This document shows, one piece after another, positions 17,701-50,900 of a stretch of 64,000 nucleotides of DNA. Below the pieces are notes generated by a model. The model was not told the origin of the DNA. It ran no database searches and saw only the letters and a list, made by a program, of their open reading frames with translations. The number at the start of each line of letters is the position of its first letter. The first letter of the stretch is position 1. The translations under genes were made by a program, and so were the position numbers. Source of the DNA: Tribonema minus (lineage: Eukaryota; Sar; Xanthophyceae; Tribonematales; Tribonemataceae); the NCBI GenBank assembly GCA_017506865.1, contig JAFCMP010000024.1, forward strand, positions 1,426,001 through 1,490,000, in the 5' to 3' direction.

Positions 17701-20700
17701 TGCAGTGCATTGTCCAAATGGGCGGCGGCGAATAACAACAACACTGCGCATGCTCCGCTCAACATTGATCCCGGGCCCCAACACAGACCAGGCCCTTCAG
17801 CGCCGACGCCGCTCTTCGAGGTATCTGTCAAAGCTCGCACGAGGCACAGAGACGTGTGTAACTGTGCAACTGCTTCACAACAGTGCCCAGCCACGCACTG
17901 CAGCACGTCCGTCGAATGAGTGTCCGGGACACAAAAGAACGCTCTCAAAGCGACAAATATGCATGATTTTGCTGTTGCCTCAGCGCCCAACAGCGTGCAG
18001 CCGCTCTCACCACGGGGGGGTCCACGCCCCTTGACCCCTGGACTGTCCCTGAGACGCCTGCCAACACAGACACCCCCAGAGAAATAGTGCACGGTGGAGC
18101 TGTGCAGCCCTCAACTCGAAGTCCGGCAAACAGTAGGACGCACTCAACATGAGAAACTCACAACTGTTAACTGTTTCAGCAGTGCTCAGCCGTGTGAGAA
18201 AAATGCACAACTTCAACTGTTGCGGCAGCGCTTGACCGCGTGCAGCAGCGCCCCCCCCCTCCCCCTCCCCTCACCTCGGAGTCGAGCACATAGGAGGTGA
18301 CGCCCTCCCCAGCGGCGGCCTGCATGACGGGGATGAGGTCCGGGTACTTGGAGGTGGCCTCCTCCGAGTTGCGCGTGAAGAAGCGCAGCTTGCCGTCTGG
18401 CAGAAGGTGGATCTGAGAGCGCTCGCCGTCGTACTTGAACTCGCACGTGACCAGCTGCCCGCTGAGCCGCGCCATGACCTGCACTCAGGGTTAGGGGTAG
18501 GGTTAGTGATAAGGGTTAGGGTCGGGGCGATTGCGGCCGCCGCGCGCGTGTGAGTTGGTCTCGAGACGGCGTTGTGTGCACTGCCGCAGTGATGGGCATG
18601 TGCGCTTCAGATTGGTGGTGGTGTGCACACTGATGAACAAGCGCGGCGGTGCACGTTACCATCTAGCGGCGGCAGGTGTTTGTGTATAAGAAATTGTCGC
18701 CAACGGCGCCCAAAGTCACGCTCACGCTCATAGCGTGTCAGGAGAGAGGCAGAAAACAAGCGCGTGCTTCGCTCCGCATGATACCACTTCATTCTAAGTC
18801 ACAATACTACCATGACGAGAGTCAAACACATAAGTCTACCTTTCATTGTCAACTTTTTGCACTTTGAAAAGTACCTTTGCGATGGACTTCTCGGGCTTGG
18901 CGAGCATGGGCGCGACGGGCAGGCCGGGCTTCAGGTGGCAGCGCTCGAGCAGCGCATCCATGGGCGCGCAGAGCATGGCCCCCACCAGCTCGCTGTAGCT
19001 GGGGCACTCGCTGTACGCCTGCTTGACCAGCGCGACGCCGGCCTCCAGCTTCTCCTGTGCGTTGAGACGCACGGACAGCGTAGAATGAGATTGCAGCATG
19101 GCATGTCTGAGATGTGGGTGCTTGTGCAACGGCGGGGCGAAAGGCGCTGCTCGGCAGCTGCGGGATGGTTGGGGAGCCTCGCCTGCTTGACCAGCGCGAC
19201 GCCGGCCTCCAGCTTCTCCTGCTCATGCAGACGGCAGCGGCGCTGCGATGTGTAAGCGATGCTGACGCAGGTTCATAGACTGGCGGAATCTACGGGTACA
19301 AGTGAGGGCAGGGGCGGGGTTAGCCGGCCTCCAGCTTCTGCTGCATTTCGAAATGAGATTGCGGTATGGGCGTGTTGAGACATGTGGGCGCGCTGCAAGA
19401 GCTGCGATCTGCGCATGGCAGGGTGACAGGCGCTGCTCTCAGCAGCTGCGTGATGGCCGGGGAGCTCTGAAGCTGCTGCGAGCGCCAAGGGCGCCAGAGC
19501 GCAGCACACGGGATTCAAGAGAGCCACCTACTGCGCCCTCACAACCAGGCACATGGCTTTCTGCCTGCAGTCGCTGACCGCTGGTACATATGTACACTGA
19601 GGGATTACTGATGTTATGCAAGGAGCGCTTTTGAGTGGCGAAGGTCAAGTTGAGTTTGCAAACGACAACTGCCGAAACCGCCATTTGAGCAGCACCAATG
19701 AGACCTTTTTGCGTGCGCCATTTGTGTTGCTCTCTGGACACATTGGCGCAGCGTCATCAAACACAGTCCAGTAACTGAAATTCAAGCCAGAACTAAATGC
19801 CGAGCACATCATCACGCAACTGCAGCTGCTTGCCTCTTGTGTCTTGGCCGCCCGGTAGGCAAGCGCCAAGGGATGGACGGCGCCCAATTTGTCCGCTTCT
19901 GTCTTCTCTTCTTCCCCTTCTTCCTGGGCCTTGTGCTCCTCTGCCGCCGGGGCGTCCGTTGCTGCCTCTTCAGCCTGGCCGCGTGCAGTCAGCAAAATGG
20001 CACAGGATGTCAGCATACTTCAGATGAAGAAATGCCGTACCGTGGATGATGCTGTGGATATGGGACTCTCCCCGCACGCATGGCATGGTCGCCGTTCGTA
20101 CAGCAAGCAAAATATACATTCACGTTAGTACCAACAGAAGGGTGTGGGAAGATCAGCTCCTCCTCAAGGAGGGTGAAGAGCTCATGCCATATGAAGAGCC
20201 CCTGGTGATGCAAGGTATGCAATTTGAAGCGCGCTGAAGGATCACATGTACCCCCACCGAGTACCAATCAGCGGCTGCATGCATCGTTCACCGCTACGCT
20301 ACCACTGCGCCTCATCGAGCGCGGCGCGTCACCCAAGTACTCCAAAGCGCGCAACATTACCCCGATCACGCATCATCGAACAACCATACACATCATTCAC
20401 TAGTGTAAACATCACTGTGCCCATCAATTTGCGGCCATAACCACTGTTCATGCCATTGTGACCATCAAATTGTAGTCAGATTCATCATTCACTAGTGTTT
20501 TACAAACGTCACTGTGCCCATCGAATCGCGGAGCGTCACCTGCTCCGGCAGTTTCGGCGGCTGCGTGATAACGGCCTGCGCCAGCGACACGAGCACAGTC
20601 TGCTTGGCGAGGCCTATGCGCAACTTGCATCAATCGCGAGTGTCTATAAACGTCAATGTGGCCATCAGATCGCGGAGCATCACCTGCTCCGGCAGTTTCG

Positions 20701-23338
20701 GCGGCTGCGTGATGACGGCCTGCGCCAGCGACACGAGGACCGTCTGCTTGGCGAGTCCGATGCGCAGCTTGCCCTGGAGGCCGCGCACGAGGTACTTGGC
20801 CTCGGGCCCCGCCGCCGCCACCAGCAGGCCCTTGATGCTGCCGACCTTCTTGTCCTGGCTCTTGGTGCCGGTTGTGGTCGCCAGCGAGCGGTACACCTGG
20901 TGCAAGTACAAGTACAAGTGCAAGTGCAAGTGCGAGTGCAGGAGCGATGGTCACGAGTCAGAGCAGGGGCGGGTCGCGATGCTTTGAAGTATGCAATGGC
21001 TGCCGATGCAGCAAGCGTTACACCAGGTGCCAGGGCACAGGCAAGAGGAACTGTTCATGAGTCGAAGCGGGGCGGCCCGGGAAGCCATGATGCTTTCAAG
21101 AATGCAATCGCTACTGATAGTTTCTGGGCCGGTGAACCTCAGGAGCGAGTGGCAGCCGTGGTCATGAGTTGGAGCAGGGCTTGTTCTTCATCTGCAAGGT
21201 GTGCGACGAGGGACGACGTGCTGAATGTTGATGCATCTAGATGGCGCTCAATTACGGCCACCGCGCCGCACTACCGCAACACAGGAGCTACACCTGCAAG
21301 GCTATCTACGCTTTAATCTTCAACTGCTGCTGTCACTTCCTCATGTAGCCTCAGCAGCAGCGCTCAGCGCTCACCTCCAGGACGCGCTTCACGGTGAGCG
21401 GCTTGGGGCGCGCCGCGAAGCTGAGCGTTGACTGCTTGCCCCTGCTGCGCTGCGCGACGCGCCCGAGGTCCCCCTCCTCCGCGTACTGCGCCTTGACCGT
21501 CTCCACGCTGCGCCCCGTGACCTGACGGCACGCGGCAGGCACAGTAGACATGCACGCGCACACACACAGGGATGTCACAAAGGCGGCGCGTACATGCGCG
21601 CGCGGCAGGCTACTTCGAGTATTGCACAGCCGGCACGGGCATGCATACGGCAGGCATTGACAGTGTGATCGTGCAGCCCTAATCCTGACCCCAATCTAAC
21701 CCCAAGCACGTGCGCAGAGCGCAGCACGAGCGAGCAAGCGAGACAACGTCCACGCTCCGCCCGACTTTTGCTGTGGTGCCCACCCAGTCAGTCTATTCAG
21801 GGACGACGAGCGCCAGCAATGTGCAGTCGGCAAGGGCGCGGACGGCAGGTCCGGGCGTGCTGCTGTGCACTCGAGAGTCCGCATGACCAGCGTCAAGAAT
21901 TGAGAGCGCCCACGGCGTTCACCGAGTGCTGCGGTCACCTTCGGAACATAGCGTCCGCAGATGAAACCAGCTCCTGGTGGGGCAACAACATGCTTGGTTG
22001 GCGGTCGGCGGTCTGTGCACATGCTGCATACAGAGCCTGCTGTAGGTAGCTATGTACACGTCAAGCCCCCGGCCGATCACCACAACTACGGTCCGCATGA
22101 AAGATTGAACAGATCCAACTGGCACTGCTCTGACATGGCGCCATTACCACAAGGCGCACACTCTCTGGATGTATCTCACACCGTGCGTGCTCCCCCAGCA
22201 CCGCTACCTGCGCACCTGCACGATGGCCTTCATGAGCAGTGACTCTCCCATGAGCAGTGACGCTCCCACTCACTATCCGGATCACTACAGGTACCAGTAC
22301 GCATGGAAGATCGAAGAAATCAATCTGGCACTGCTCTGCTCTGCCATAACGTCCTTGTCACAAGGTGCACAGTCTCTGAGTGCATCTCACACCGCGTATG
22401 CCCCCCCACCATCGCTCTATGTGCACCTGCATGATGGCCTTGATGAGCAGTGACTCTCCCACTCCCAGCTCCACGCCCTCAAAGTCCGGCGCGACCTGCA
22501 TTCACAGCAGGGGGTGCAAACACACACAGGATGGAGGGGGTTGTGATGCACTGCGGGAAATGACATGGTGATGGTCGAAGGCACTGGCACACACGCGCCG
22601 TCATCATTGTGCAACTTCATTGTTGAAGTGTGCCCCGTTTCTCGATACTCTTTGTGATCTGTCCAGCCCAGCGTCCAGCTTTGAACCATCATGAATATGA
22701 GCATAATGCATGAAGGGTGACGCGCCGCGCTTGGCTGCCTTGGAGGTGTCAGGTGACCGCCAGGCGCTACACACCTGTTGCAATCGACATCTGCTGGACA
22801 GACCATGATGGCGCGCCACTTTGCCACATGTGTGCAGTGGAATTTGAGGCATGCAGTGGTGACGACGCTGCGTCGATAATGCTAAGGAAATTTCAGCCAC
22901 TGTGAATACAATGAATACAACAACAAAGGGCGGTTCAGTGTGTATATTGTGCATTGGTCTAATAAATGTCGCCGCATGGTTCAGGTGCTGGCCGAGAAAT
23001 GACTCATAATCATAAGTTTGTACCTGATTGCAGGCCAGGAAGACGCAAGCTTCAAGGTCGTCGGGCGTCAGGGCAATGACGGTGGCAAAGAAGCCCCGCA
23101 GCATTTCCTGAGGCGCACAAAGCGGCAGTAAACGCATTGATGTAGAGCAGAGCCTCAATATACCGTTGTGTGAGTGTGACTTTAATTCCTGCAGCAGGTA
23201 CTGCTGCCCGTAATCTGCTGATGACGCAGCGCAGAGCAGAGCAAGTCCTCCATGCTGACGTCTGAAAGGCTTGTTGGTGTGTGCCTGAAGCGTACATGAT
23301 ACGATTCCATGTATGCACTGCCAACGGGCGATGCGTAC

Positions 23339-23370
<32 letters not shown>

Positions 23371-26000: not shown

Positions 26001-26179
26001 GCTGAGTCGTACTCGCGAGCGGTCTGCCTTCTGCGATCCCCGCTGCGCCGCTTCTTCTTTGCTGTTTTAGTTGCCGACAAACTTTGGCGGGAACATGTAG
26101 TTGTTTGGCCCCAACTTCAAGCTGCGGTTGAAGTTGTGTTGATGCCTTGAAGTTGTGAGTGATCTGACGAGAGAGCACT
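26001..26179. promoter_or_regulatory. Bidirectional promoter with E2F site
   Basis: Only 179 bp separate the start codons of DNA ligase I (minus) and the thiolase (plus), so both promoters must overlap. The sequence TTTGGCGGGAA at 26083-26093 matches the E2F/DP consensus. DNA ligase I is a known S-phase E2F target in animals and plants, so this site probably ties it to the cell cycle. Three ACTTCAAG/TTGAAGTT-type motifs follow between 26110 and 26156. No TATA box is evident. Confidence 0.7.
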
Positions 26180-29100
26180 ATGGGCAGCCCGGACGATATC
26201 GTGGTGGTGGCTGCTGTCCGCACTCCCATCACCCGTGCCAAGGTGACTGCTGCACGCCTTTCCTGCCTTCCACAGGATTTGCGTCCGACGACGTTCCACA
26301 ATCGCATGTTTCTCCTCCCTCGCCAACGCCGCCGCTGCATTCCCGCCTGTGACTGCTTCTCGTGCGCAGAAAGGTGCGTTCAAGGATACAACCCCGGATG
26401 TGCTGCTGGCGACGGTCCTGCGGACGGTGCTGGAGCGCACGGGCGTGATGGGGGAGGACCTGGGAGAAATCTGCGTAGGCAACGTGCTGCAGCATGGCGC
26501 TGGCGCAGCTGGCTCTCGCATGGCGCAGATGATGGCGGGCATCCCACACACAGTACCCCTCAGCACCGTCAACAGGCAGTGCAGCAGCGGCCTGCAGGCC
26601 GTGGCCAATGTGGCCTCTGGCATTCGCAGTGGCTTTTACGACATAGGGATTGCTGCGGGGGTGGAATGCATGTCTTTGGCGAGCATGAGCGGCTCTGTAC
26701 CTCAGGTGATGTTCATACAAGTTTCAACAAATGGTAGCAATCTCGCTGCGCAACCGCAGCAATATATTCACAGGATCCATTATGAGAGAGAGGCTTGATA
26801 CCTGGCACAAATGAGGCGCCGTTCATCTTGAGAGTGTAGACAACTTCCTTTGTATGCATGCAGCATACGCTTAGGGGGCTTACAGAGTCATCGACAGGCA
26901 AGCGTGCGCCAACATGAGCAGCAGCAGGCAGCATGCTTTCCTATTTGTCAGGAACAGAGACCTGTTGCACGCTAGTCATTTCTCTGCGGCATGCATGCCC
27001 GTAGGTGCAGCAGCAGCACCACCACGATTGCCAGCTGATGAAAGGTGCCCATAGGTTCATGACAGGATGTTTCACAGCGTTGTCATGCTCTTACTCGATA
27101 TGTTTCATTTGAGTTGCAAATGCTTCATGACCGGCATGTAGCCACTTTGCACCACCGTTGCAAGGAACGACTGTGGTTCAATCCTCACATGGACTGAAAA
27201 CAGCAGTACAACATCAACAATGAATCATTTCTTGGGAAAGTGGTGCTTGGAATTCCTGAGGCTGGTCCACGCTGCATAAAGTAATGTTTTGTGTGTTCGT
27301 GCTGGCGGTGCAGACAGGGCCATGCACTGGCAATGCACCGGCATGTGATGCACGCGAATTTTCACCCATGTGGTGCTGTGAACTGGCATGGCCACGTGAT
27401 GCCTCACAGCGCACCCATTGCGCGCGCGCCGCCAGGACGTTGTGCAACCTGTACACCCACTTCATGCACTTCAACTTCAATTGTCATCCAAATCAACACC
27501 CTCTCCTGAGTGCAGCGATCATCGGGCGTACTGGCATGCACAGACCAGGCCTCTGCACGCACATGGGCGCGGCGCATGACAAACGCGAACCTCCTCACCA
27601 ATGTTGTGCCGCAGTTCCTCATGCTACAGTGATGCTCCACAATGCTTATGTATCACTTCAAGTTCACTTTCTTCTGCCCTGTGTGCAGCGGTCGTCACAA
27701 GGCAAACTGGGAAGCGGTCAACACGGTGCGCACTCGCTTTCGCATCCGCCCGCTGACACCTGTCCTATGACCTTAATCGCCTGCATTCACCTGTCCTATG
27801 TCCGGCCGACCACGTCAGGTGAACTGGGACGCGGTGAACGCGTGCCGCGAGGCCAAGGACTGCACCATACCCATGGGCATCACCAGCGAGAACGTCGCTG
27901 CCAAGTACGGCGTGTCGCGCCAGGAGCAGGACGCCTTCGCGGCGGCGAGCCACACCAAGGCGCACACCGCTCAGCAGGCGGGCAAGTGAGTGTAGTAGTG
28001 CGCGGGGAGTCACACGACAGCGTTTGCTGGCTGACAGGGTTGGGGTCAGCATTAGGGCTAGGGTTAGGGTTAAGGTCAGCTGCCAGTAGGTGCGCGGAGA
28101 GTAAGCTGACAGCATTTGTTGGCTGGCAGGGTAACGGTTGGGGTTATGGTCAGCGGGTTAGTGCGCGGAGAGTCCACAGGACAGCGTTTGCTGGTCAGCG
28201 TGAGGGTCAGGGTCAACGGCAAGTGAGTGCGTGGAGAGTCGCACGACAGGTTTGCTGGCTGTGAGGGTTAGAGTCAGGGTCAGCGGCCCGTCAGTGTATG
28301 GAGAGTCACTTTGCATACAACTGTGAGATCATGGATGCGGCGGGTGTGCTGTTGCCTGTTGGTGCGCGGAGGGGGGGCCCTCATTGCGCAGCGCGCCCCT
28401 CGTTCAAGCACTGCGGCGGCCCCCGACAGCATCTCACCCAAGCAGCACAGCACGCGCCAAATCGCGCACTGGCCGCGCCTATACGCGTGGCGCACTCATC
28501 GATACATACCCCTCCATTCTGGCGGCCGCGGCGCAGGTTCCGCGAGGAGATCGTTCCCGTCACCACGTACGTCAAGGACAAGGACGGGGCGCTGGCACGC
28601 GTGACGGTGGACGCGGACGAGGGCATCAGGCCGGGGACGAACGCGGAGGCGCTGGCCAAGCTCAAGGTGGAAACTTCATGTTGAACTTCCACATTCGAGC
28701 CTATGACAGTTGGTTGCTGGCGGGGCCGTGGTCACGCGCCTGACCGCAGTTGGTCTGCGCGCCATGGCTGGATCTTCGCAGAGCGTTCCTGTGTGCGTTC
28801 TCGCCACTGTCAGGTCGCCAGCAGTGTTGCGTGTGTATCACAAAGTGACAGTGTCGGTTTCTGAGTGCAGACTGTTACCCCCGCTGAGTGCGTGCTGAGC
28901 CCTGATGGAGCTTGTCCGGCGCCCTAAGGCGCAGGCGTGCGAGGCATGAGCATGCTCGGGCGCGCGCACGCGGCCAGCTTCCGGCATGTCAGGCGCATGG
29001 CGCAGCGCAGCAGTTGCTTACGGTATGTACGGCTGCTGATCTGCACGCCAAATACCGGCCCTTCACTGCTATGCCCCGACAAACAAAGACCAAGCTCCCG

Positions 29101-31469: not shown

Positions 31470-34400
31470 TCAGCTGCCGCTCGTCGTGTGCGGCGGCGAC
31501 ATGAGCATGGCGTCATCCTCCGCCACTGATGCCATGCCCTGGCTGACCGGCGGCAGCGGGATGGGGCTCTGCGTCGCGGCGCGCGTCGCGTGCTGCACAG
31601 ATAGAGCACGCATACAAACAAAGCGCATGAGCCATGAGCGCCGTAGTGCCAGGTGGTGGGCAGTCAGCGGCGCGGCCGTGCCTCATGTCTCGCGCCGTTG
31701 TGTCAAACTGCGAAGTTCTGCATGCAGTTCTTCATGGGCTTGTGGGATGGCCTGTACTTCTGAGCGCTGCTACATGGCCCTGACTGCGTGCTGCGGGGGA
31801 ATCTGTGGCAGGCGGGCAAGTGCTGAATGTAATGGACATGCTGTGTGTCGTTTCTCACCAAGGCGCGAGCTGTCCCCAAATGCGCACTGCCGCATTGATG
31901 TCATGAATCTACATGCTGCAGACTGACCTGCAGCGATGTGAAGCCGCTCATGAGCGTCTGCCGCTGGTCCGCCGGGGCGGGGATGGCGTCGCCGCCCGCA
32001 AACCCCCCCTCGCGGGTCGCCTGAGTCGCCTGCGCAGGGCGGGTCACCGAAGGGGGGGGGGGGGGGGGGGGCGTGCGCGCGGCAACAGCGATCAGCCCTG
32101 AAAGCAGTGATCAGCTGAAGGACCCAGCGAGACGCAGGTGTACTGTTTGTCGATTCTCGCTGAGGGCGCGAAAAGCCCAGGTGAATGGTATTTAAACTTG
32201 CTGTACGGAGTCTACATGTCGTGCGACAGCCTGAAAACGTCTCAATGGCAACCACTCAAACAAACGCAGGCGTACCCGATGCCCTTCCCACCGAGACAGT
32301 GGTGTGAACAAGCGGTGCTGCAGTCGAGCACGTTGGGCACAACAGTTGCTGAGTTCGCGTGCGCATGTTGAAATGGCGCTGTTGCAGGCCGGGTTGCCCA
32401 GCTCATGCACCGTGCTGCTAGATAAAGCATGAGGCCACAGAAAAACGACTGCGACTGCCGGCTACTATGACTGCACTCTGTACCAGGTGTGTGATGCACC
32501 AGTGGCTCTGCTTTCTCAGGTTGACTCACTCACGTCTCGATTGATGCATAGACTGTGGATGCATGAAGAAATGAGCTTTGAGGAAAATACTTGTAATAGC
32601 ATTGCTCCACATCACACAATGCGTCATGATCACAATGACATTTATAAACTCCTGCTTAGCCAAATACTCGCGCATCGGGCAGACTGCAGTACATTCTCAC
32701 ATGATAAAGCACACTCTCACCTGCTGCAAGATGTTCTGTACATCCAGGGTGCTGGGGTGATCTTCTCCCAGATTGGTGATGTACACTTGAAGTGCGCCCT
32801 CCAGCTGCTCTCTGGCCAGCCCTTGCTCACCCATGAACTGTGCAGGGCAGGGGTAGGGATGCGTGCACATCAGTTGTGTGCACCATTTGACAAAAACTGA
32901 TACCAAACGTGATTTTACGTTGGTTCAACACACGTCTGCACATGATATCATCATCAGAGAATGCCGTTGCATACTTGAAGTAATGAGCTCGAAGTTCTGT
33001 TTGATGTACAGTGCCCCTTACAGCAAATGTTCGGTCGCTGTGTGCGCAACAGAGCTTAAACGCCCGCAAGCTACGATGCACGTGTAGTTCACGTGAGTAA
33101 ACTGCACACGGACTGCATATGATGAGGAATGAGGAGTGCTATGGTGTCAGTGTGCCACCAGCAGTGCTCAGCGTTAGCAGATGCCACACATGCCGTACCG
33201 CACCCGGCGCTCAACCGGCGACACCGCCATCGCCAACGCATCTCTTGCGCACTCACAAACACTTTGACGCCTTCTTGCTCTCTACATATAGCACATTAAT
33301 GGGTCGCGCCGTGCTAGGTGCTCGCTTGCGTGCAGCGTGCCGAGCCTCAGTCCGGAGACACTGCGCATCGCCACTGCAGGTTGTGGAAGACCGCTCAAAC
33401 CCTAACCCTAACCCTAGCCCTAACCCTACATCAGACCCTCATCATGTGCTAACCCTCGTTTACATCCTCACCCAAACCCTAACGCTGGAGACACGGCGCA
33501 TTGCCACTGCAGTGCGTGGAAGACCATCCAAACCATAACCCTTGCCCTAGCCCCAACCCTAGATCAGGCCCTCACCATGTGCAGCAGGCCCAGCGTGTAC
33601 TTGGCCTCGCCGGTGGCCATGTGACCCTCGCCCAGCAGGTTGAGCCGCGTGCTCAGCACCTGCAGCAGCATCTCCAGGCCCTGTCGCGCAAGGGCGGCAG
33701 CATGCAGTCAGCAGCAGTTCTCAGTTGCTGCTGGCCAGTATGCTTCCATGAGCAAGCTGTCGTGCAATCGCATTTGAGTGGCGGCATTCGGTCAGCAGCA
33801 GCTGTCAGTTGCTGTTGCCGGTATATGCTTGCATGTGCAAGTGCGCCTACAGAAGCTTGTCGCGCAATGGATCGTTGGCCTGGTGTGCTTGCTGCTGCTG
33901 ACCCCCAGGTCGTTGTAGCAGAAGCAGAGTGCAGGTGAAAGAAACACAGCAGGGCACTCTGCCGAGATCGGCACTCATGAATGTGCCCCACGAGCAAACT
34001 CTTGCTGGCACAGTGGCGCATTCGTATCTGCATCACAAACGCATGTTTTGTTGTACAGGTACTACTGTCTGGTCGTTGCCAACTGCATTGTGTAACTTGC
34101 CCGCATGCTTCAATGACGTCTGCTACGCCGTGCTCATACTGCTGGCAACGCAGTCGTTCAGCGGACACAGTCCACCATACGCTACAGTCGTTCAAGGGGG
34201 AATGTGGGTTTGCTAGCAGCATGTCAGTTGAGGTCTGCACGACATGTGCACACAAGTAAGAGGCCAGCACCGCACTAGGAGTAGAAGCATGCTTGCATCT
34301 ACCTCCGCAAGCTGCTGTGTCACCGTTGCGTCAGGGCCAGAACTAGGGTCAAGTATACAACTCTGCAAGCTGGTCTCGGACAACAATGCATCAGAAGCTA

Positions 34401-37334
34401 GGGCTAGGGCTAGGGGGTATGTAGGTACCTCTGCGAGCTGCTCCTCGGGCACCTCGTCCGCGGAGCCGTGGCACATGCTGGCCAGCAGCTTGTACCATAT
34501 ATCCACCACCTTGTCGTAGAAGGCCAGGGCTGTGTTCACCTGAGGCGTGCACACGGCGCCATGTGGTCAAAGGCGTGAGCAGGGTATGTCATGCCAACAT
34601 GTGCCATTCCTCGTAGCATCGTAGGGCATGCTGTACCTCACCTCGCTTCAACTCTTACCTCTACCTTTGACCCTAACCCTAAGTGGGGTTGCGACGTGCG
34701 CGCGCAAGCAAAGACGACACCGTAATGAGCTGGAGTCTATGACATGACGTATGGTGTGATGCTGCTGACCCTCACCCTAACCCCAACCGCGAACCTAACC
34801 ATATATAGTCCTGATTCTAACCCTAACCCTAACCCTAGGCCTGCTGCTGCTGGCTGGTGTGCTGATCAAGCGTACATGTGGACCGCATGGCGTGCTCATG
34901 CATGCTGTCATAGGCAGGCAGGCGCATCAGTGCCCAGCCAAGCAACGTCAGTGCTCAGTTTCAATTGCCTTTGACCCTGTGACAACATGACTTCATCCGA
35001 CAAGAGCCGTGGGAATCCTTGCGGCAGCCTGCACGCAAGTGATCGAGGGAGGGACTTGTACAGCTCCAGCAAGTTGACAGGTCAGACTCGTCTGCTGCTG
35101 CTGGAGTGCAATATCATGTCGTCAATGCACCAGACTCAAGGCCTAGGGCGCGTCATTGGCATCTTGTGGCCCCGAAGCTGAGTTGCTGCCATGCGGTGCA
35201 CCGATGAAAATACCTTACTTCAAAAACGAGTGTGTTGTGGGCAACTCCTCGTCACCTTTGTGCGCGTCTGGATGCGGAGCTACGGTGACTCACCTTGCGC
35301 TGCGTGTAGAACACATCGGCCATGAGGAAGTACCCGGCGGACGTGCTGATGTGCTCCGGGCCCACTTCCACGCTGGAGCAGTAGACGTGGCTGCTGAGCT
35401 CCTGCAGCGCCTTGTCCAGCTGCCGCGCGACGCGACAGTTACAAAGCGGACAGTTGCAAGTGAGGTAACGACCTTTTGTGAAGATGGCAATCCAGGCTGA
35501 TCAGTTCCCACAGCGCCTGGTCGGGCTGCCCTGAGGAACCGAAATGCCACTCTCAGTTGCCCTTGAAGCCTTCATTGGACGCCCCACAAGGTGTCATGCA
35601 TACACTGCAGTATGACTTTACCAAGCTCCTTCGTGATGCTACGGTGCAGCAGCGCTCCACCGGCCGCACCCTCATCGCACCCCCCCCCCCCCCCCCCGCC
35701 GCCGCTACCCCCACGCACCTTGCCCTGCGCCCTGTACAGCTTGCCGAAGTTCTGGTGCAGCTGGCTGCGCACCGCGCTGCTGCAGTCGGGGTTGCGCAGC
35801 ACCACCCAGTTGGCCAGGCTCAGGAACTCCTCCGCGCTCTGCAGGCGCGCGAGCCCGAGGTTGGCCTGGCTCAGCAGCAGGTACGCGGGCACCATCTCCA
35901 GGCTCTGCGCGCCGTACGCGTCCTGCGCGAACGCCAGCGCCTGCGCGGCGCGCGCAGTTCCCAGGAGGCGGCAGTAGCGGTTGCAATCAGGTCGCAGAAC
36001 TTGAGGCCATATGCAGGGGTTTGGCCAGAGCAGAGCATGCGGCATACGATTGGTCATTGGTGATCGGGCACTTGTTCGTTCGTCCCCGCATGCACGCGGT
36101 TGTGTGTGCCGCCGCTGAGAGGTCGAATTCCCGTGTTGGCCAGCGATTGCCTTGGGAGCCGCATGGCGTGGGTGACAACGTGGCGTACGCTGTACGACAA
36201 CTCGCCGTCTGGCACACGAGGGCCTTGGGTCATGTGAGGTTGCCTTCCGCTGCTGCGGGGGGTCGACGGTGCCGTGCACGTGTGGACGCGCGAGCACGGC
36301 AGCACGTGCAGGTGCTGATGCTCAGCGTGCCTGTGCCCTGACTGGCTAAAGCAAAATGGACATGTGACGTGTTCCAGTAGTACAGCATGTCTCACAGCCC
36401 TTATTTGGTCCGGGTGAGGTAGCACTTCATGACTGTTGCCCGGTATCGGTTATAGAAGTTATCATGTCCGAGTGAGTGATCTGCGCGGCGCGTGTTGGTG
36501 CCGGGTTTGGCGGACTTGCCTGTATGGCGCCAGGCACCGCCAGCTCATAGTTGCCCTGCGTGAGGAACTTGCTGGCCTCCTGCTGGCACAGGTCCACCAG
36601 GGCCTTCTTGCTCATCTGCAGCAGCACAGAGATCATGCAGCTCTTTCACTGCGGAGAGGCAGTTCGCATTTGTTTGCAGTCTCTCGTGGGTGCAGGCGAG
36701 CAACGAGCCTGGCAGTGGCATGGGAGAGATGCTGTTGAACTTGCCTGTCGAGTGCAAAACAGCACTCGCACCTCGTTGGCACCGTTGCTGCATTCTTGAG
36801 TGTGGTTGAAAATACATTGGGGTCAAGCAGGCACAACTGCATTGGAGAAGTGCTTGCTCTTGCTGACATTTTAGTGCAGGCATGCAGTAGACCGACATGT
36901 GATTCTTGAAATGCCTTTTTTGATGCTTATTGATGAAACGTTGATGCACTGCCAGCGCTGGTCATTTCATGGCTCGAACAACTAATGTTAAGACTCGTAC
37001 ACCAGTGCTGGAAAGCGCAGCAAACCATGATACATTTGTAGCTGACCTCGACCACAAGGGCCTTGCGTTCCCTCTCCTCCTTGCTTCCGATAATTGGAGC
37101 CGGATTTCGCAGCGGTCCTACTAGTGGGGAGATGCGCCGCATAATTCCGTGCCAAGCCTGCTCGGCATGCTCTCTCGTAGCGTAGTACAGCGTCACGTGT
37201 GGGGTCACGCATTGTATCGTTGCTGGCAGTCCTGTCAGTTCGCAGATAGGGTTTTGTCCCTTTGGGAACGCCAGCCTGTTGAGCGTCTCAATTCGATAGC
37301 CCTCATCCGCTCTTGATCCTGATCGTCTACCCAT
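31470..37334 (-). CDS. ZMYND12: ZMYND12/p38-like axonemal TPR protein (9 exons)
   Basis: Relative of vertebrate ZMYND12, the counterpart of Chlamydomonas p38, which works with TTC29 at an inner-arm dynein of the flagellar axoneme. Exons (complement): 37334-37047, 36615-36520, 35940-35719, 35419-35294, 34539-34429, 33680-33576, 32837-32721, 32029-31928, 31568-31470; 421 residues. Diagnostic stretches are LEMVPAYLLLSQANLGLARL, NWVVLRNPDCSSAV, TSAGYFLMADVFY and the TPR-like LGEDHPSTLDVQNILQQ. The region aligning with the MYND zinc finger (about residues 30-70) keeps the PA...C...VT.YY...H...W framework but lacks most zinc-binding cysteines. All eight introns are phase 0; intron 2 starts with GC (GCAAGT). 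The last two exons, residues about 356-421, are low-complexity and least certain. A retrotransposon fragment sits in intron 7. Confidence 0.85.
32150..32300 (-). mobile_element. 3'-end fragment of the RLE retrotransposon
   Basis: Read on the minus strand, this matches the 3' end of the element at 15520-15640: the GTTTGAGTGGTTG..GTTG/CATTG start, CAGACTGTC/CAGGCTGTC, ACGACATGTAGA, CATCTGGGCTTTTTCGCGCC/CACCTGGGCTTTTCGCGCC and GAGCGAGAAT. Identity is roughly 75-80% by eye, so this is an older or different subfamily copy. It lies in intron 7 of the ZMYND12-like gene and is 5'-truncated, as expected of target-primed insertion. Confidence 0.85.
33393..33570. repeat. Interstitial telomere-like CCCTAA tracts
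   Basis: Three clusters of CCCTAA and variants (CCCTAG, CCCTACA) at about 33398-33431, 33473-33482 and 33536-33564, abutting the exon 6 donor of the ZMYND12-like gene. The intervening GGAGACAC.GCGCAT..CCACTGCAG unit is also tandemly duplicated (about 33353-33380 and 33487-33513). Confidence 0.85.
33665..33875. repeat. Tandem ~105-bp repeats copying the exon 6 acceptor
   Basis: Two full units and the start of a third begin with CTGTCGCGCAA (33681), CTGTCGTGCAA (about 33759) and TTGTCGCGCAA (about 33857); each is followed by related GTCAGCAGCAG and AGTTGCTG..GGCC/GCCGGTAT segments. In minus-strand sense each unit start is the exon 6 acceptor TTGCGCGACAG. The units lie in intron 5 of the ZMYND12-like gene. 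Confidence 0.75.
34744..34845 (+). repeat. Interstitial telomere-like CCCTAA tract
   Basis: Runs of ACCCTAACCCC/AACCCTAACCCTAACCCTAG with one AT-rich interruption, in intron 4 of the ZMYND12-like gene. Confidence 0.85.
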
Positions 37335-41313: not shown

Positions 41314-41860
41314 CAGCCAATCGGGGCTGGCCATCAGGCTCAGCGGTTGCACCCCCATTCGGGCGCTGGCTGCGCTGCCAGGCGCCATCTATTACGTCAC
41401 GTCACGGCCATCCATTCCATAATTTGCTGAGCATCATCACCTGCTGCGTCAGTCGGGGGTAGCCATCAGGCTCAGCAGTCGCGCCCCCTTCGGGTTGTGG
41501 CTGCGCAGTCGCGCGCCGTTCGTTACAACACTTTACGGCCGTCCCTTCCATCACTCGCTGAGCATCACTGCCTTCCCCACCCCCTGCACGCGCGCGCGCA
41601 GACCGCGGCGCAGACGAGCGTCGCCACCATTGAGCCGTAACTAACCCTAACCCTCACCGCGAGCAGTCGCACACCACCAGACGGTTTGTGCTCAGGCGCT
41701 GCCAGTTCGGCGGTCGCACGCTGTTGCTCGCTCAGCCCCATCTGCAGCATCGGTCGCTCAGCCATCCATAGCATCGCTCATCGAGCGTCACCGCCCGCTG
41801 CGCCCGCCCCTGCGTGTGCGCAGACGTCGAAGCAGACGAGCGTGGTGGTGGAGAAGAGCG
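41314..41860. repeat. ~130-bp tandem repeats ending at an exon acceptor
   Basis: Three degenerate units (about 41314-41445, 41446-41625, 41650-41860) share CCATCAGGCTCAGC.GT.GC, TTCGGG/TTCGG, CGGCCATCCATTCC-like and CGCTGAGCATCA segments. Units 2 and 3 both end in a CGCG/TGTGCGCAG acceptor followed by exon-like sequence: 41601-41624 reads ACCGCGGCGCAGACGAGCGT, against ACGTCGAAGCAGACGAGCGT at the real exon (41824). Confidence 0.75.
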
Positions 41861-42754
41861 GCGACCACTGCATGGCGCTGCGCACGGAGACGGCGGGCGA
41901 CCCCACACCCGACGAGGCGCGCCGCGCAATCGCCTTCCACGCTGAGGACGTGAAGGTACGCGCTGAGCGATGGGCACCGCTGTAGGGTAGGGTATGTATG
42001 TATGCGTGGATGTATGTTGAGGCTGAACGAGGCGCGCTGCGCCGACACCTGCTAAGGTGAGAACTGATATTTGAGCCGTGGTGCAACACTGTAGGGTATG
42101 CATTAGGGTATGCATGTATGCGTGTGTGTGGGGAGGGGAGCAGACATGCTGCTGGGTGAATGAAGTCGTGTTGGACATGCTGTTTTGGGTGTGGAGGATG
42201 GCGCAACGCGGCGCGCATGCGTTGAGCTCTGTCCCTCGATCTGTAGTGCTGGGCTAGGGAGGGCGCGTCGGTAGCAGACGCAGCGGCATTGGCGACAGCG
42301 AGGATTCCGTACATGCTCCTGACGATTGGGCCAGTGTGGTAGGCAGCATATAGTCTTGCCTGGTCAGTCAGCATGTAGGCTTTTCTGTGGTCGTGCTGGT
42401 AGCATGGCCTTCGCATGCAGTCCGTCTCTTGCCACGTGGTCACCGAGCCGCTCGGCTCGGCGAAGTGTAGTGCGGTGAAGTGCAGCGCAGTGTGCGCCGT
42501 ACTCAACACCACACTGTCTCCTGCCGCTGATGTGAGCCCTGACGCCGCGTTCTGCCCCCCCCCCCCCCCCCCCCCCCACTCACACACGCGCGCGCCAGGT
42601 GGCGAGCACCAAGAAGGAGCTCATGCAGCGCTTCTTCCCCTCCATCCTGGCCGCCATCGCCGACAGCGGCGACGACGTGCTGGACGACTGCTCCTTGTGC
42701 CTCGGCCCCATGAGCGTGTCCTCGCACCTGCTGCTCAAAGTGGGCGCGCTGTGA
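41824..42754 (+). CDS. C-terminal exons of an unrecognised protein (partial)
   Basis: Two exons with clean splice sites: 41824-41955 (acceptor GTGCGCAG, donor AAG|GTACGC) and 42599-42754, ending in TGA. Together they encode 95 residues, including SVVVEKSGDHCMALRTE, DEARRAIAFHAEDVK and ELMQRFFPSILAAIADSGDD, then CSLCLGPMSVSSHLLLKVG. Both exons are phase 0 and have coding-like composition. The N-terminal exons are not identified: they may be those at 40043, or start near an ATG at 40946. The intron before the last exon ends in a C-run (42547-42577). I do not recognise the family. Confidence 0.5.
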
Positions 42755-43269: not shown

Positions 43270-43345
43270 GTGCGGTGGAGAGGCGGCAGGTATAGCTGAG
43301 ATGGATCGTGCGGTGGAGAGGCGGCAGGTATAGCTGAGATGGATC
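43270..43345. repeat. Exact 38-bp tandem duplication
   Basis: Units 43270-43307 and 43308-43345 are identical by eye. They lie in a region without recognised genes. Confidence 0.9.
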
Positions 43346-44257
43346 GCAGCCATCATGGCGTTGGGTTCAACGCAGGTGGCAGACATCAAGTTTAACTGCA
43401 ATGTACTTCAACATCAACCACAGCACCTGATGTTGATGCTCCTCACTGTCACTGTCCTACCAGCCCTGGTGGTCGAGCAGGCGTGCTCACAACATGCAAG
43501 AAACTCAATATATTTGCGTGCACACTGTATTGATGGAAAGCAGATGGGACATGGGAGAGTCACTTTGGATGTATGAGGACAGACAATGCTCCTCACTGCC
43601 CTTTGCCACTTCAGTGTAGAGCTTCAAAGAAGAACATCCTCTGCCCTTTTCAAATACTTGCATGCTCTTGCCTACCTGAGTTATTGTTGAGTGCACAAGC
43701 AGCCTGCCCAGTTCGCTATGAAAAAGAGGTTGCTGCACGGGGCGCATCACTGCGTTCCTAGACTTGAAACTATTCATAAAGCACGACATAAGCTTGCGTT
43801 CCACCTCACAGATGCGTTAAGGTGAGTCATCATACATTAAACAAGGTGTACGTATATGCGCTGTGCAGCAGTAAGCCTGCGACGCGACAGACGTGTCACA
43901 AGTAGGCAACTGCAGACAGCGATGTGGTGCAGTTGGCAACCCTGTGCCAGTGTCATGCGGCGTTGAGGTGCCGCCGTTGCAGTCTCGTCATCATTTGGAA
44001 GCGGGTGATGCAGTCAGGTGGCACCAAGCTTGGTGAATGTAACTCACGACGCTGCTGTACAACGATGCACTACAGTAGGACTCTGCATCATCATCGTGCA
44101 CAACCTGTTTCAATGCGACTCGTGGGCAGAGCTCGGCGCAAAGAATTAGTGCAACAGCGATGGACAGTCTCACAAGACATGGCTATCTACATTCCGTGGT
44201 ATTGTCGACTCTGCTGGAACACCACAGGGGGCTCGTGAACGCCAGTACAGGGGTGCA

Positions 44258-44281
44258 TTTGTGTGTGTGTGTGTGTGTGTG
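44258..44281 (+). repeat. TG microsatellite
   Basis: An uninterrupted GTGTGT run of about 24 bases in the intergenic region. Confidence 0.9.
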
Positions 44282-44916
44282 TTGACAGCGTGCGTGATGG
44301 TCCGCAGCGGGCGCGCGTGTACATGTCTTGATACATACAGTAGCATGCGCGACAGCGCACCCCCCCGCAAACAACCCAGGCATATCATGCGTGTACGCAA
44401 GGAGCGCTAGCCAGCAGCACAGCTTGGGTGTGCATGCAATCCCTTACATCGGCGCATGGGCAGCGCCTGCTGCGCTGCCGCCGCCATGGCCGCTTTTCCC
44501 GCCACACCGCGTTAGTTACTGCAACTGCAATGCGCGGCGCGCCACTGCTGCGGCCAGCGCCGAGGCGCGGCTGATGCCGATGCCGCTGCCGCCATAGCCG
44601 CCGCGCAGCCGTTGCTGCTGCTGCTAGAGCCATTGCCGCCAGCGTATACAGTGTATGCACGCACGCAGTCTCTCCATGCACCTGCGCACTGGACTGTAGT
44701 ACATGCATGTCGCATGCACTGTGGCTGCTGCTGCGCGTGCCGGCTGCGCCCCGGCAAGCGGCGGCAGCAGCGGCGGAGGCAGCACGGCGCGGCAGTGCTG
44801 CGCGGCGCCGCCAAAGCGGCGCGCGACGCGCGGATTCACACGGACGCTGTGCGCAAAAACAGGAAAGGCGCGGGAGGCAGACCGCCACGCGCGCGCACAC
44901 CAACATTCAGCTCGCA

Positions 44917-47900
44917 CTAGCTCGCGCCCTGCGCCGCCCCCGCGTCCAAAACATCAAGTTGATCTTCCGCCGCGGTAGGTATGCTAGCTTGGTAGCTGGG
45001 CGCCGGTGGACATTGCGCTGGGACGACTTCGCTGGCGGAGTGCTCCTGGTCCCCTGCCGGTGGCATGTCCGGCGCGTCTATGTCAGGTGGTGGCTGCCCG
45101 GTCTGCGCGGTTTCGGGGGGGGGGGGCGCAGAGGGGGGGGGGGGGGAGGGGGAAATGACACACATGGTTGAGGGCTGTGCGCTTTGATTGGGAGTTTTTT
45201 GCATGAACATGCAACAGGTTTGCTCGCATCGCGCACATGCGCTGAGCCCAGTGCTCGCTCGCCATTTGCCATTCGCACCCTAGCAGCGTCAAAGCGACTT
45301 GAAGTTTGGTGTCACGCACCATGCGCCGCATGGCCGCGTTCATCGACTGGGCCGGCGGCGTATCGAGTGCCTTACAGTGATGGTATGGTCTACTTCAATC
45401 CCTTGCCCTGCAGCTCACGTAGCACTTGCCATGGCGCACGGACATTCGCAATATAAGAGCCTCGGACTGACTCATGTCACGTGCGCCCATGCACGTTCGA
45501 TAGCCGGTGGCTACCCTCCAACCAGGTGCAGGAGCACGACATGCCGCCATTGCATTTCCAAGTACATCGCAGTATCACGCAGAGCACGCGCGGTTTGGCG
45601 CTGCCCCTGAACCTGATACTAACTCTAATCCTAACCCACACGAGGGTATCTCCAGTGCAAAAAGAAGGTACTGACTGACGTTGCACCAGGTAAAGGTGAA
45701 GGTGTACGCCTCGCACAGGCCACTGCATGGCGCGCATTGCCGTCCGCGCTCTGTGCGCACTCTTGTCGGCGGCCTGAACCTAGCAACTGAGTAGCCTACG
45801 CTCTCCGCGTTCAGACACACGACAGTACTTCTGTACCAACCCGGCAAGACACGCAGCGCACACCACCCATCACCGCGATGCACAAAATTCGCCAAACCCA
45901 CTTGATCACTCTACACACAAACACACGCAGCGGTCGGTACAGCCACCACACACCACCAGCTCTCGCCGATCACTCCGCCCAGACCACGCAATGACAAACC
46001 ACCAATCAGGACACAAAGCAGGCGTGCGCAAGCATCGCTCCACTTCACGCGCGCCCACCTGATGCGCCGCGTACACGCGCTCCAGCCCCGCCTCGAACGA
46101 CCGCACCCAGCGCTGCGTGTCGAACAGCGGCGCGCCGCGCCTCGCCGCCGCGAGGCGCTGCCGCAGCGCAAACAGCCGCTCCGGCTCCGTCGCGAGCGCC
46201 ACCGCCGCCTCCTCATATTCCTCAACTGACCCCGCAACGAGCTCCGGCAGGCCCGCCGCCTTGAGCAGGCTGGCGCCGACGCGCGACGCCATCTTTATGC
46301 CGCGCGCCGTGAGCATGGGCGTGCCGGACCAGAGGATGTCGCAGCCGGTCGTGTGCGCGTTGCAGGAGAGGGTGTCGAGGCACAGGTCTGCGAGCGCGCC
46401 GCGCCGGATGTGCTCCTCCTGGGGGGGGGGGGGGGGGCGGCGTTGCGGAAGATGGGAGGGGGGTAAGGTCGGGGCGGATACGTGCAGGCACAGTCAGGGC
46501 TTCCAGTTCCTGCGCACTGGTTGGCGTAGCAGTGGCGAAACGAGGCGCGCGCAGCTGCAAGGGGCGTGTGCGCAACCCTCTGAGCACTGTGGAGGCGATG
46601 CAGCGCAGCGAGCGTATGCCTCACTCATAATCCCTCCGCCCCCTCCCTGCATGCACTCCAAGGTAAACCTTAGGGTTTGTCTGCTTCACGTGACCTCAAC
46701 AATTCCATCCACTACAGCTCACCTTGGGAGCGACGTTCGTGAAGTGGAGCACTGCGGCTACGTGCGCATCCATTTCAACAATTCATATTCAACTTCACTG
46801 CGCTTCGTGCATCAACTTCAACCGTCATGCCTAACTTCAACTCACCTTGGGAGCGACGCTTGTGAAGTGCAGCTGCGCATCGGTGATGCCCTGCTTGCGA
46901 GCCTCAACTTCAACCATTCCTGCATCAACTCAACTCCAACAATTCATATCTAACCAACTTCAACTCACCTTGCGGGCGACGTTAGTGAAGTGAATTGCAC
47001 GTCGGTAATGCCCCGCTTGTGTGCCTCCAAATTCAACAAATCATGTACCACTTCAATGTGCTTGCTTTGGTACCTTCAAGTGCGCTCGTTGCCTCAACTT
47101 CAACCATTCATGCCCCAACTTGAACTCACCTTGGGAGCGACGTTAGTGAAGTGCAGCTGCGCGTCGGTGACGCCCCGCTTGTGCGCCTCGGCGCGGATGT
47201 TGGCCTCGCCCGCGGGCGGGAAGCGCAGCAGCCACAGTATGGAGTTGGGGACGCGCCGCAGCACCCTCATCCAGATGTCAAACGTGTCGGGGTCGATCTT
47301 GTAGATCTGTACGCACGGGGGGGACGGGGGGAGGCGCGCGGCGGCAATGGGTCGGACGGCATCGCATTTGTGTGTTTTTCTTCAGAGGTGTGAACCAAGG
47401 TGTGTGATGGTGCTGCACGAATATGTAGTTTATACCGGCGGCCCCTATGCCGACCTCTCAGAACGCTGAGGTGCAAGGGAAATGGAGCCGGAGCGCAGAG
47501 TGCAGTGGGTGTGCGCTCAGAGTGCGGCGCGGTCACGCAGCAGCGGGGGGGGGGGTGACGTGCGCAGATGGGGGATGACGCGCACATGCCTGAGCGCTGC
47601 TGTTCAGGCACCCATGTCCATCAAGTTCCAGTACAGGCCGCGTGCGATCGATCATGAGATGCGCGTTGCGGCCAGCGGACTTGTCGCCCGGTATATATAC
47701 TGCGTGTGCAGCAGTGCTCGGCGCCAAGCCCATCATCACCTCAGGGCCTCTGCACACATGTGATGAGCAAGCTGCATTTGCCACGAACGTGGCGCACAAA
47801 CTTGGCACGCGCGTGACAATCTGCTGAGGCGAAGAGTCACAATAATGAAGTTGGGCCAGCGCATGGCAGTGCTCGACACCGCCGCGGCATCAAAGCCGAA

Positions 47901-50900
47901 GACACAGCATCAACAACAACAGCGCGCACTGCCCCTCTACGGCACCACGTTGAAGTTGACGCCCCCTCCCCCAGCAGACCTAAAAAACACGGAGTCTACG
48001 GTACCAGATTGAAACTGACCCCCCCACTCCCCCCCCCCCCCCCCCCCACATACCTGATGAAAGTTGCAGAAGACGTCTACGCTACAAGATTGAAGTTGAC
48101 GCACGTACCTGATTGAAGTTGCAGAAGACGAACTTGTCGTCGGGGACGCCGTACTGCGCGCGCGTGAGCGCCGGCGCGCCCCCCGCGCCCGCCTCCAGCG
48201 CGAAGCGCGCGCTCTGGCGGTGGTCGTTGACAAAGTAGCTGTGCGGCATGTAGAGGAGGGCCTCGGTGTAGTGCGTGCGCGCCTCGGGGGGGATGACCTC
48301 CCGGTCCGCGACCATGTACTGGATGAAGTCCGCGCCCATGGTGCCGCAGAAACCCATGTAGGCTACCTGGGGGGCGCGTTCACAGGGGCATGGGGGCGGT
48401 TTGAGCAAGCGGTTACAGGGGGGGGGGCCTAGCGCGACGCCAATCGGGGTGGATGCACGCAGCGTGCAACGTGCAGAGCGCTGCGGTTTTTCAAGCAGAA
48501 GAGACTTCCGCAGCAAGCCCGGGGAGGGTGTGTGTGTGTGTGTGTGGGGGGGGGGGGGGCAGTGCGCCGGCATGCGCTCGATGACATCAAGCGCAGACGC
48601 AGACAGACGTCTGTCAGCAGATGTGCTGAGGGGAAGGGGGTGCCCTGCCAGCGGAGAGGAGGTGATGCAGCCGCAGCAGCGCATGCGCACCTGCAAGGGG
48701 AAAAGCGAGGCGTGCCGCGATTCCAATGTGACCGACACAGGCTACACTGCGCTGAGTCAGAGGCATACGAGTAGAGTCCAAATAGCCGCAAGCGACTGCC
48801 GCACACATGTTCCGTACAGCCGCAACAGACAAGTACATTTCTGAGACTGAGGCTGGACTGCGAGCCACGCTCAAGTCTCATCCTCGTGCGTCCAGAATCA
48901 CAGCTCTACGTCCGCATCGCTTGTGCATAAACAAGCAAGCAAACGCGCGCGCGCGCGCACCTGCACGGGGGCCGGCTGCAGCGCGAAAATCTCGTTGCGC
49001 GCGCCCTTGGTGTAGCCGTTGAGGTTGATGAGGACGTCGATGCCGTCGGCGTGGATGAGACGCGCTGCGTCGCCGGGCTGCAGCGCGCTGATGTCGCGCA
49101 TCTGCTCCACCTCCGCCTCGATCTTCTGCCGCCAGACGCTGTGGCGATTGAGTGCGCGTGCAGCAAGCGTGCCTCAGAGGTCAACAATGAGGATTCTGCC
49201 GCGTCTTGGTGCACACACACATTGGCGCAGTGTGACGCTTCCACTGCACTCCAAGCAAGGGTCTCTCGGCTCAGATGTGGCATGTGCTGAAGTGTCAAGA
49301 GGGGGGGGGCTGACACTACAGATTCTGCTTGTAGCACTTGCCCATGGGCCTGTCAAAACACTCCCAAAACTTCAAGAGCTGATGCTGATAGAGATACTCT
49401 GTCAATGCTGCACATCAAAGCCAAGACATGCGCTAGTGGGGACATGAGGTTTTCAGGTGTGCTCAACCTCACCTGTTATCATTTGCGCTGAGTGCATAGC
49501 AAGTAACCTGTATAACAGCAGCACAACCAAGAGAGCACACTTCGATTTAGCCACAAGTACTCTAATAGCAAAAGCAAACATGTTTCAATGCGCACAAGAT
49601 ATGCAGCTGCATGTGTTGAAGCACTGCCGCTAGTTGCCCATGCTCAATAAGTAGTACAGCAAGTGGCACAGCGTGTGCTGTCAGGCATTTGCGCCTACAC
49701 TCTGGCCCGCCGTGCACCGTACCTCAACTTCTGCATTTGAAGTGCCTGCAAGCGGGCAGCCCTCTTTCTTGTTGTGCATGCGGTACATGACCTGCTTAGC
49801 GCGTGGTCGCCTAGGGTTGAGATTGAGGTTAGGTGAGGGTTAGGCACGCTGCAAGGCCGGCAAGGCTACACGCCAATCACAGCTTTCAAAAGTGCGCCCC
49901 CAAGCGAATACGAGTGCACTTCAGCCTAGGTGCAACGCTCTGAACAGATACATACGAATGCCCCCATGCGAGCGGCCACACGCGCTGGCACGTCACACCA
50001 GCACCGGCACGTCACTAACAGCGGCACGTCACCAACACCGGCATGCCATCACACCGGCACGTCACCACCACCGGCACGTCACCACCACCGGCACGTAACT
50101 AACAGAGGCACGTCACCAACACCGGCACGTCACCACACCGGCACGTCACCATATCGCAATGGCACGTCACCACACAGGCACGTCACCGCATCGGCATGTC
50201 CTCCCCAACCCCCCTACACCCCCCTTTGGCGCACCCACCTGGAAGCGGCTCTTGTCGTGCATGCCGAACACGCTCTGCATGAGGTGGCTCAGCGGGTGGT
50301 TGCCTAGGTCGCTGCTCACGTAGCCCACGCGCAGACGCCCCCCACCATTACCACCTCCACCCGCAGCACCGGCGGCGGCGCGCGCACGGTGGCGAAACGG
50401 CGGCAGGTCCAGCAGCCTCACGTTGAGGCGCGCGCGCTGCGCGTAGCGCCGGCTGATCTCCAGCATGTCCGCGAGGCCCAGCGGGTAGACGAGCGCGTGG
50501 AAGGGCTGGACACTGGGGAGCGCTGCTGCGACGGCGGTGTCGGCGGCGTCGGCGGCGGGCGCGGCGACCTGGCGGCGGATGATGGCGGTGAGCTGCGCGA
50601 AGTCTGCGTCGCGCGTGCTCCAGTCGCAGATGAAGTTGAGGCTGCGAGGGGAGGGCAGGGGGAGGGGGGGGGGGGAAGGGGGCGCAAGAGAGAGACAACA
50701 GAGTGGGGATGGAAGTGAAGTTTGAAACTCGTCGTAGTGAGAGAAGAGTGAGGAGCAGCGAGCATGTGGCATTGAGTCTTGCAGAAGAAGCTGGTGGCCT
50801 CCATCATGAGGTGGTGACACTGGGGCCAGTGTGACGCTGCAAACCGCTGCACGCGCGCTGCCTTCGCCCCCAGACTACACGCTACTGCCAGCCAAGAGCG

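Follow-up and report, generated by a model that had tools for sequence, protein, structure and literature searches.

Why do introns in one stretch of the genome of Tribonema minus, a yellow-green (xanthophyte) alga, carry, in tandem, copies of their own splice junctions, and are such introns born in this way or only enlarged? The stretch, hereafter the window, comprises 64,000 nucleotides of contig C24 (GenBank JAFCMP010000024.1, positions 1,426,001 to 1,490,000) in assembly G000, which has 158 Mb in 554 contigs, and the genes concerned include those for DNA ligase 1, a thiolase and the ZMYND12-like and OGT-like proteins. A sequence-only reading of the window had claimed that splice donors or acceptors, together with adjoining exon, are repeated in tandem into the introns. 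We confirmed this claim in a main count of 148 introns from 26 T. minus genes with models that are backed by protein or homology. The explanation that we favour, with a probability of about 0.73, is that tandem duplication recurs within genes, that the outermost splice site is kept, and that the added copies lengthen the intron and then decay.

Tandem duplications in supported introns

Local tandem duplications were found in 63 of the 148 supported introns and 33 had a boundary array, i.e., a duplication that includes the splice junction and at least 12 bp of exon, while the identical scan of order-1 Markov resampled sequence gave no pairs in 444 regions. Outside the window, any array was present in 47 of 111 introns and a boundary array in 26; within it, the automated scan counted boundary arrays in 7 of the 37 introns of the four supported genes. 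The 89 arrays in the supported introns comprised 20 donor, 17 acceptor and 51 interior arrays and one that included both junctions. An asymmetry between donors and acceptors, as predicted from 3' splice-site scanning, was rejected on these counts. Early on, the 60-bp exon ends of 56 introns were compared with their own intron, and the match exceeded that of all 55 mismatched ends in seven cases on the donor side, some of them weak, and in three on the acceptor side, with about one per side expected by chance. That the process is frequent in this genome, as the sequence-only reading had suggested, holds for the supported introns taken together, but the spread across the 26 genes was very uneven: a P-type ATPase gene (L024) had boundary copies in six of its seven introns and an ABC1-family gene in none of its 12.

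Several clear cases lie outside the window. In the SMARCAL1-like gene L025, an acceptor unit, made up of 59 bp from the exon and about 120 bp from the intron, is present in three copies spaced about 185 bp apart. Its farther copy is 98% identical to the exon and its nearer copy 90%, and the regular decay away from the functional copy that had been claimed was not observed. One intron of the EttA-like ABC-F gene L015 has both its own donor and its own acceptor copied into it; these copies fall outside the two aligned segments of the solved EttA chain, which is contiguous there, or in a gap. A copy in a dynein gene (L029) also sits in a gap of the alignment to its solved homologue. A search with the PF00118 family, for which no gene model is needed, matched one stretch of the chaperonin profile three times consecutively on contig C51. 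Repeated exon ends of 39-57 bp, with differences mostly at third codon positions, were seen at 4261-4950 and elsewhere in the predicted gene L021; the part of it that was submitted had no Pfam match, and these may be true tandem exons.

Anatomy of the units and of the copied splice sites

The arrays are tandem units that recur across supported genes. The exon part of the boundary copies measured 13-90 bp (median 39), which differs from the 20-110 bases that had been proposed, and the offset between copies was 55-601 bp (median 165). Most copies extend across the splice site. Of the 38 boundary pairs, 28 carry 8 bp or more of intron past it and 19 carry 20 bp or more, and in the remaining 10 the ungapped match ends before 8 bp of intron. 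When the arrays were tested for head-to-tail copies, 28 of 37 boundary arrays had a gapped alignment that spanned 80% or more of the unit; among mismatched units, 4.8% did. When all models were included, the unsupported ones among them, the median unit length was 170 bp for boundary arrays (middle half 131-198, n=44) and 109 bp for interior arrays (middle half 72-177, n=33). Boundary units are expected to be the longer ones because longer units reach junctions more often.

The splice dinucleotide was retained in 32 of 37 arrays, with GT in 17 of the 20 donor copies and AG in 15 of the 17 acceptor copies. Copied donors that kept their GT scored 5.86 on average and the functional ones 6.34 (n=17, p=0.13); nine of them equalled or beat the functional donor, and 15 exceeded the 95th percentile of the other intronic GTs. 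The copied acceptors averaged 4.26 compared with 4.90 for the functional ones (n=15, p=0.22) and seven exceeded the 95th percentile. The strength of the copied sites would be roughly what drift at the measured divergence leaves.

Intron lengthening and the alternative explanations

Introns with arrays had a median length of 727 bp and those without 558 bp (p=0.00044), a difference that may partly reflect the greater room for arrays in long introns; array spans covered 18% of the supported intron sequence. According to the proposed mechanism, segments, commonly of 100-200 bp, would undergo repeated tandem duplication within genes, and the arrays would have begun in this way through slippage, unequal exchange or break repair. 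Where a junction lies within the unit, the outermost copy (the first donor or the last acceptor) would keep its place and, because of this, the protein would be unaltered provided that this copy remains in use. The extra copies would add to the length of the intron that holds them and, being free of constraint, would subsequently decay. We infer that selection tolerates these duplications because splicing retains the outermost site.

The sequence-only reading had proposed that introns are born or lengthened by such duplication, and the two parts of this proposal fared differently. In the Rogers model, as it is presented in PMC papers on intron gain, a new intron arises through the tandem duplication of an exon segment that contains AGGT. 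Its signature, i.e., similarity of the intron end to the upstream exon end or of the intron start to the downstream exon start, was found in none of the 148 supported introns (threshold of at least 14 of 23 positions identical in either comparison, with 0.10 and 0.15 introns expected by chance), and no copy among the 38 boundary pairs abutted the opposite splice site. Because of these two results, the introns appear to be older than the duplications. Moreover, the model presupposes a unit that was wholly exonic before duplication, and most pairs carry intron sequence as described above. The AG|GT junctions are compatible with old gains but not specific for them: in the 56 introns first placed by protein alignment, 21 downstream exons start with GT, which gives AG|GT at the acceptor, and 41 upstream exons end with CAG, GAG or AAG. 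It is very improbable that the arrays are stages of intron birth. The lengthening of existing introns by local tandem duplication is well supported, including by the 28 arrays that are similar over most of their unit, and the creation of new introns from AGGT exon segments is not supported. Among the same 56 introns, 41 were in phase 0.

It is also improbable, though less so, that the copies are functional exons, alternative or mutually exclusive, maintained by selection. If the exon does not change while the copy evolves freely, then by our own derivation the proportion of nonsynonymous differences (pN) should be about half of the intron divergence and that of synonymous differences (pS) about equal to it. 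In 46 pairs, which include unsupported genes and are not independent, pS was 0.182, the divergence of the intron parts (dI) 0.173 and pN 0.059; the better figure comes from 40 copies at 26 supported junctions, which had 98 synonymous and 103 nonsynonymous differences. These substitutions are close to one-sided constraint and place the exon-derived parts nearer to the expectation for passive copies than to that for exons under selection; strong coding constraint on the copies in general was rejected on the 40-copy counts. Furthermore, the copies are only partial exons and the inserts are absent from the solved homologues of two genes. Selection would nevertheless fit individual copies such as the one at 20483-20628 in the ligase gene, a candidate alternative exon, in which all six differences in the exon part are synonymous and where gene prediction places an in-frame exon of 60 bp, and the middle copy of L025, which lies outside the 40-copy set and in which all six differences are synonymous and at third positions. 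An unlikely source of the arrays, instead of tandem duplication, is break repair in which nearby sequence serves as the template for an insertion. Such repair would account for the few copies in which similarity covers the exon end but little of the intron, such as the ligase copy at 19180-19233 with its 39 identical bp, and for the two of 37 arrays with similarity over less than half of the unit; it does not sit well with the 28 that are similar over at least 80% or with the regular periods of some arrays, e.g., the three units of L025. An assembly artefact due to unmerged haplotypes or contig overlaps is hardly credible, since arrays of three or more copies occur, the divergence in many pairs amounts to 10-30%, and a search of the 158-Mb assembly with the ligase and OGT array regions found no match other than these regions themselves, because of which there is no second haplotype to compare.

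Several observations weigh against recurrent in-gene duplication with retention of the outermost site as the explanation. In five protein-evidence genes outside the window, only one of 27 introns had a boundary array, and the inclusion of a diverged copy in L019 raises this to only two. Nine of the 37 arrays fell short of similarity over 80% of the unit, and in L024 the alignment to the solved chain, with one copy in the query, showed no clean gap at the copied stretch. The ratios pN/pS in the 40 copies (0.35) and pN/dI (0.34) both fall below the value of about 0.5 that is predicted for a free copy, a shortfall of nonsynonymous differences that could be caused by detection loss of diverged copies, and the ligase copy at 20483-20628 shows no nonsynonymous difference at all. 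The use of the outermost site is suggested by annotated and homologous proteins; two junctions were confirmed by the transcript-derived proteins of a close relative, which may itself lack the copies.

Are junctions favoured?

An excess of boundary arrays over random positions had been anticipated, and it was found at the array level: 38 of the 89 arrays included a boundary compared with 25.7 under uniform placement (z 3.2). This excess could arise if constraint on the exon prolongs the time over which copies can be recognised. When copies that contain exon were taken to be detectable for twice as long, 37.3 were expected (z 0.2); this factor is an assumption, which fits the observation that exon parts in the 46-pair set diverge about half as much as intron parts. 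With a stricter score, 32 of 57 arrays were boundary arrays, and 17.5 were expected under uniform placement (z 4.6) and 25.2 with doubled detectability (z 2.0). A window test avoided exons altogether by taking wholly intronic windows in introns of at least 600 bp and seeking their copy further in. A copy was found for 83 of 430 windows at 10-90 bp from the junction compared with 25 of 456 at 200-280 bp. By intron end, 34 had only the near copy, four only the deep one and nine both (sign p=6e-7); the near-only and deep-only counts were 23 and 3 outside the DNA window and 13 and 1 in protein-evidence genes. The near/deep ratio was 3.8 (gene bootstrap 2.5-8.0), and the junction-proximal excess is thus observed without recourse to exons. 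In unsupported gene models, the counts were 13 and 6 with no clear excess (p=0.17). An earlier test with a 600-bp target on protein-evidence donors showed a slow fall, from 8 of 62 at the junction to 7 of 61 at +200, 4 of 58 at +260 and 2 of 53 at +320.

On these results junctions are probably favoured, though the matter is not settled, and the cause may be mutation, survivorship or both. It is possible, at somewhat below even odds, that splice junctions are a true duplication hotspot owing to chromatin at exons, transcription- or splicing-linked breaks, or nucleosome-sized replication intermediates. The near-junction excess in the window test, its bootstrap interval and the protein-evidence genes speak for such a hotspot. 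The uniform model with doubled detectability, the slow fall-off and the unsupported models speak against it; moreover, sequence near a junction may persist longer, with deletions there striking the splice site. The broader claim that junctions are the preferred sites of roughly nucleosome-length duplication, several-fold over deep intron, which would make this a main engine of intron growth and a source of arrays of full-strength decoy sites, is tentative and somewhat less likely than not.

Gene models and scan

Protein-to-DNA alignment of T. minus proteins and of the transcriptome-derived proteins of a close relative gave 56 introns in eight genes, all GT-AG except for one GC-AG, and the OGT-like gene added 10, for a total of 66 protein-evidence introns. 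Further genes were predicted using a small gene-finding hidden Markov model (HMM) that was trained on the protein-evidence introns and that recovered 45 of the 66 introns, 53 donors and 55 acceptors in a leave-one-gene-out test; a self-trained version was weaker (33 of 56 held-out introns exact) and the former was used. These genes came from 25 10-kb loci sampled at fixed places and from four chaperonin-family loci, and their acceptance required homology to solved structures, Pfam or related proteins, or the family search itself; a Pfam family was assigned to eight of the 10 proteins that were submitted. The exon edges of the homology-supported genes are still HMM predictions, and at 10 loci the whole predicted gene was admitted on one domain or family match, so some of their introns may be wrong. 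Introns shorter than 80 bp or longer than 2500 bp were excluded, which removes two of the 66 protein-evidence introns, including the 7.4-kb ligase intron; losses to this filter were tallied for the protein-evidence introns and not for the predicted genes.

The main count leaves out the window genes without protein evidence and 10 genes without homology support (48 introns), in which 12 of 27 arrays were boundary arrays. L037 was chosen because its copies were visible; it contributes one of the 148 introns and was omitted from the near/deep test. Predicted exons that resembled copies were taken out by rule and partly by hand. Very high boundary rates obtained from HMM-predicted junctions were rejected as circular because the HMM labels intronic copies as exons. 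Array counts from gapped BLAST were not used since near-diagonal pairs are lost by BLAST.

Features of the window

The splice sites in the window were placed by proteins of T. minus and of the close relative (Table 1). At the level of self-BLAST, the pattern is seen in seven introns of five genes; the figure of at least eight introns that had been given is reached when weak cases are counted, of which there are four further ones (OGT donors 48108 and 52710, thiolase acceptor 27818 and the ZMYND12 acceptor near 35420). P0001 matches the ligase exons, with GT-AG in all 14 introns and no mismatch at the junctions, and the ligase intron 20683-19055 is copied at both its donor and its acceptor end. 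The gene model at 40.5-42.8 kb, in which both an acceptor and a donor appear copied, is without homology support.

Table 1. Duplicated junction regions in the window (window positions; identity of each copy to its source)
Feature	Position	Strand	Remarks
DNA ligase 1 gene, part covered by P0001	5736..23919	-	15 exons, 14 introns
Ligase donor source unit, last 89 bp of exon and intron start (20683)	20628..20772	-	
Intronic tandem copy of the 20628..20772 unit	20483..20628	-	88%
Ligase donor 22426, source unit	22280..22461	-	self-comparison, protein-placed junction
Intronic copy of the donor 22426 unit	22075..22250	-	77%
Ligase acceptor (intron end 19055) and exon start	19016..19069	-	
Upstream intronic copy of acceptor 19055	19180..19233	-	91%; 39 bp of exon identical
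Third, more diverged copy of acceptor 19055	19323..19465	-	66%
ZMYND12-like donor 33575 and intron start, source unit	33478..33582	-	junction from close-relative protein P0129
ZMYND12-like intronic copy	33345..33449	-	82%; only 6-7 bp of exon; scan class interior
Thiolase donor region, source (exon end 27985)	27942..28049	+	
Thiolase donor copy, same intron	28165..28277	+	69%; scan class interior
Thiolase acceptor (intron end 27818), weak upstream copy	27705..27729	+	score 21
OGT-like donor 47129, exon end and several intronic copies	46681..47189	-	junction fixed by P0136
OGT donor 48108, short copy	48054..48075	-	22 bp of exon, 91%
Upstream copy of acceptor near 41823 (source 41761-41843)	41538..41621	+	69%; gene model unsupported
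Copy of donor region 41912-42022	42027..42136	+	68%; gene model unsupported

The 7,396-bp ligase intron (9450-16845) contains a long open reading frame on the + strand (10193-15490) and a 330-bp direct repeat (16062-16726). With 40 of 378 candidates scored genome-wide, this repeat had at least 40 full-length 100% matches, its own included, because of which it appears to be a young dispersed element. Coding-looking stretches that are absent from P0001 lie inside the ligase gene (19830-19980) and upstream of it (24650-26003); by eye, the relative P0002 has similar residues at 19830-19980, and the annotated ligase protein may miss exons. A tRNA gene is located at 3807-3880.

Comparison with known systems

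The ATP2A1 case and internal gene duplications that create introns (Gao and Lynch 2009; Hellsten 2011) are recounted in PMC4974935, PMC3296678 and PMC3443670. As far as these accounts go, gene segments with splice signals are duplicated there as in T. minus and splicing hides the added DNA; however, those duplications yielded a new intron, whereas in T. minus existing introns enlarge without a birth signature. A potato RdRp gene, in the account of PMC4974935, underwent tandem duplication across an intron-exon boundary, with the acceptor and part of the exon, as well as an 83-bp tandem duplication inside an intron. The unit likewise spans the splice site and part of the exon, but the potato case as given there is one event with a new intron, while T. 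minus has many events, at donors and acceptors, with no sign of a new intron. In Drosophila, five probable gains by tandem duplication are reported among 31 novel intron positions in PMC2891723. These also are short tandem duplications around proto-splice sites, although they represent intron gain and not the lengthening of existing introns. Introners, which PMC9860276 presents as mobile elements copied into many genes, resemble the present case in that intron content changes on a large scale within a single lineage. Unlike introners, the ligase and OGT arrays, the two that were searched, match their own locus only, in a search that skips very common words. The portions of the open-licence literature on tandem-duplication intron gain and introners that were available contained neither the Tribonema pattern nor recurrent junction copies that lengthen introns, which is weak evidence of novelty.

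Significance

Intron lengthening is commonly attributed to mobile elements. In T. minus, intron growth can be observed at many stages within one genome because short junction-spanning duplications are recognisable in so many of the supported introns. Because the copied donors fall only slightly short of the functional ones in score, the introns that contain them offer a natural test of how the spliceosome selects among near-identical sites, which typically lie about 165 bp apart. The intronic copies may also supply raw material for alternative exons. If junctions are indeed the preferred sites of duplication, the spliceosome of this alga would have to disregard full-strength decoy splice sites by their position or context.

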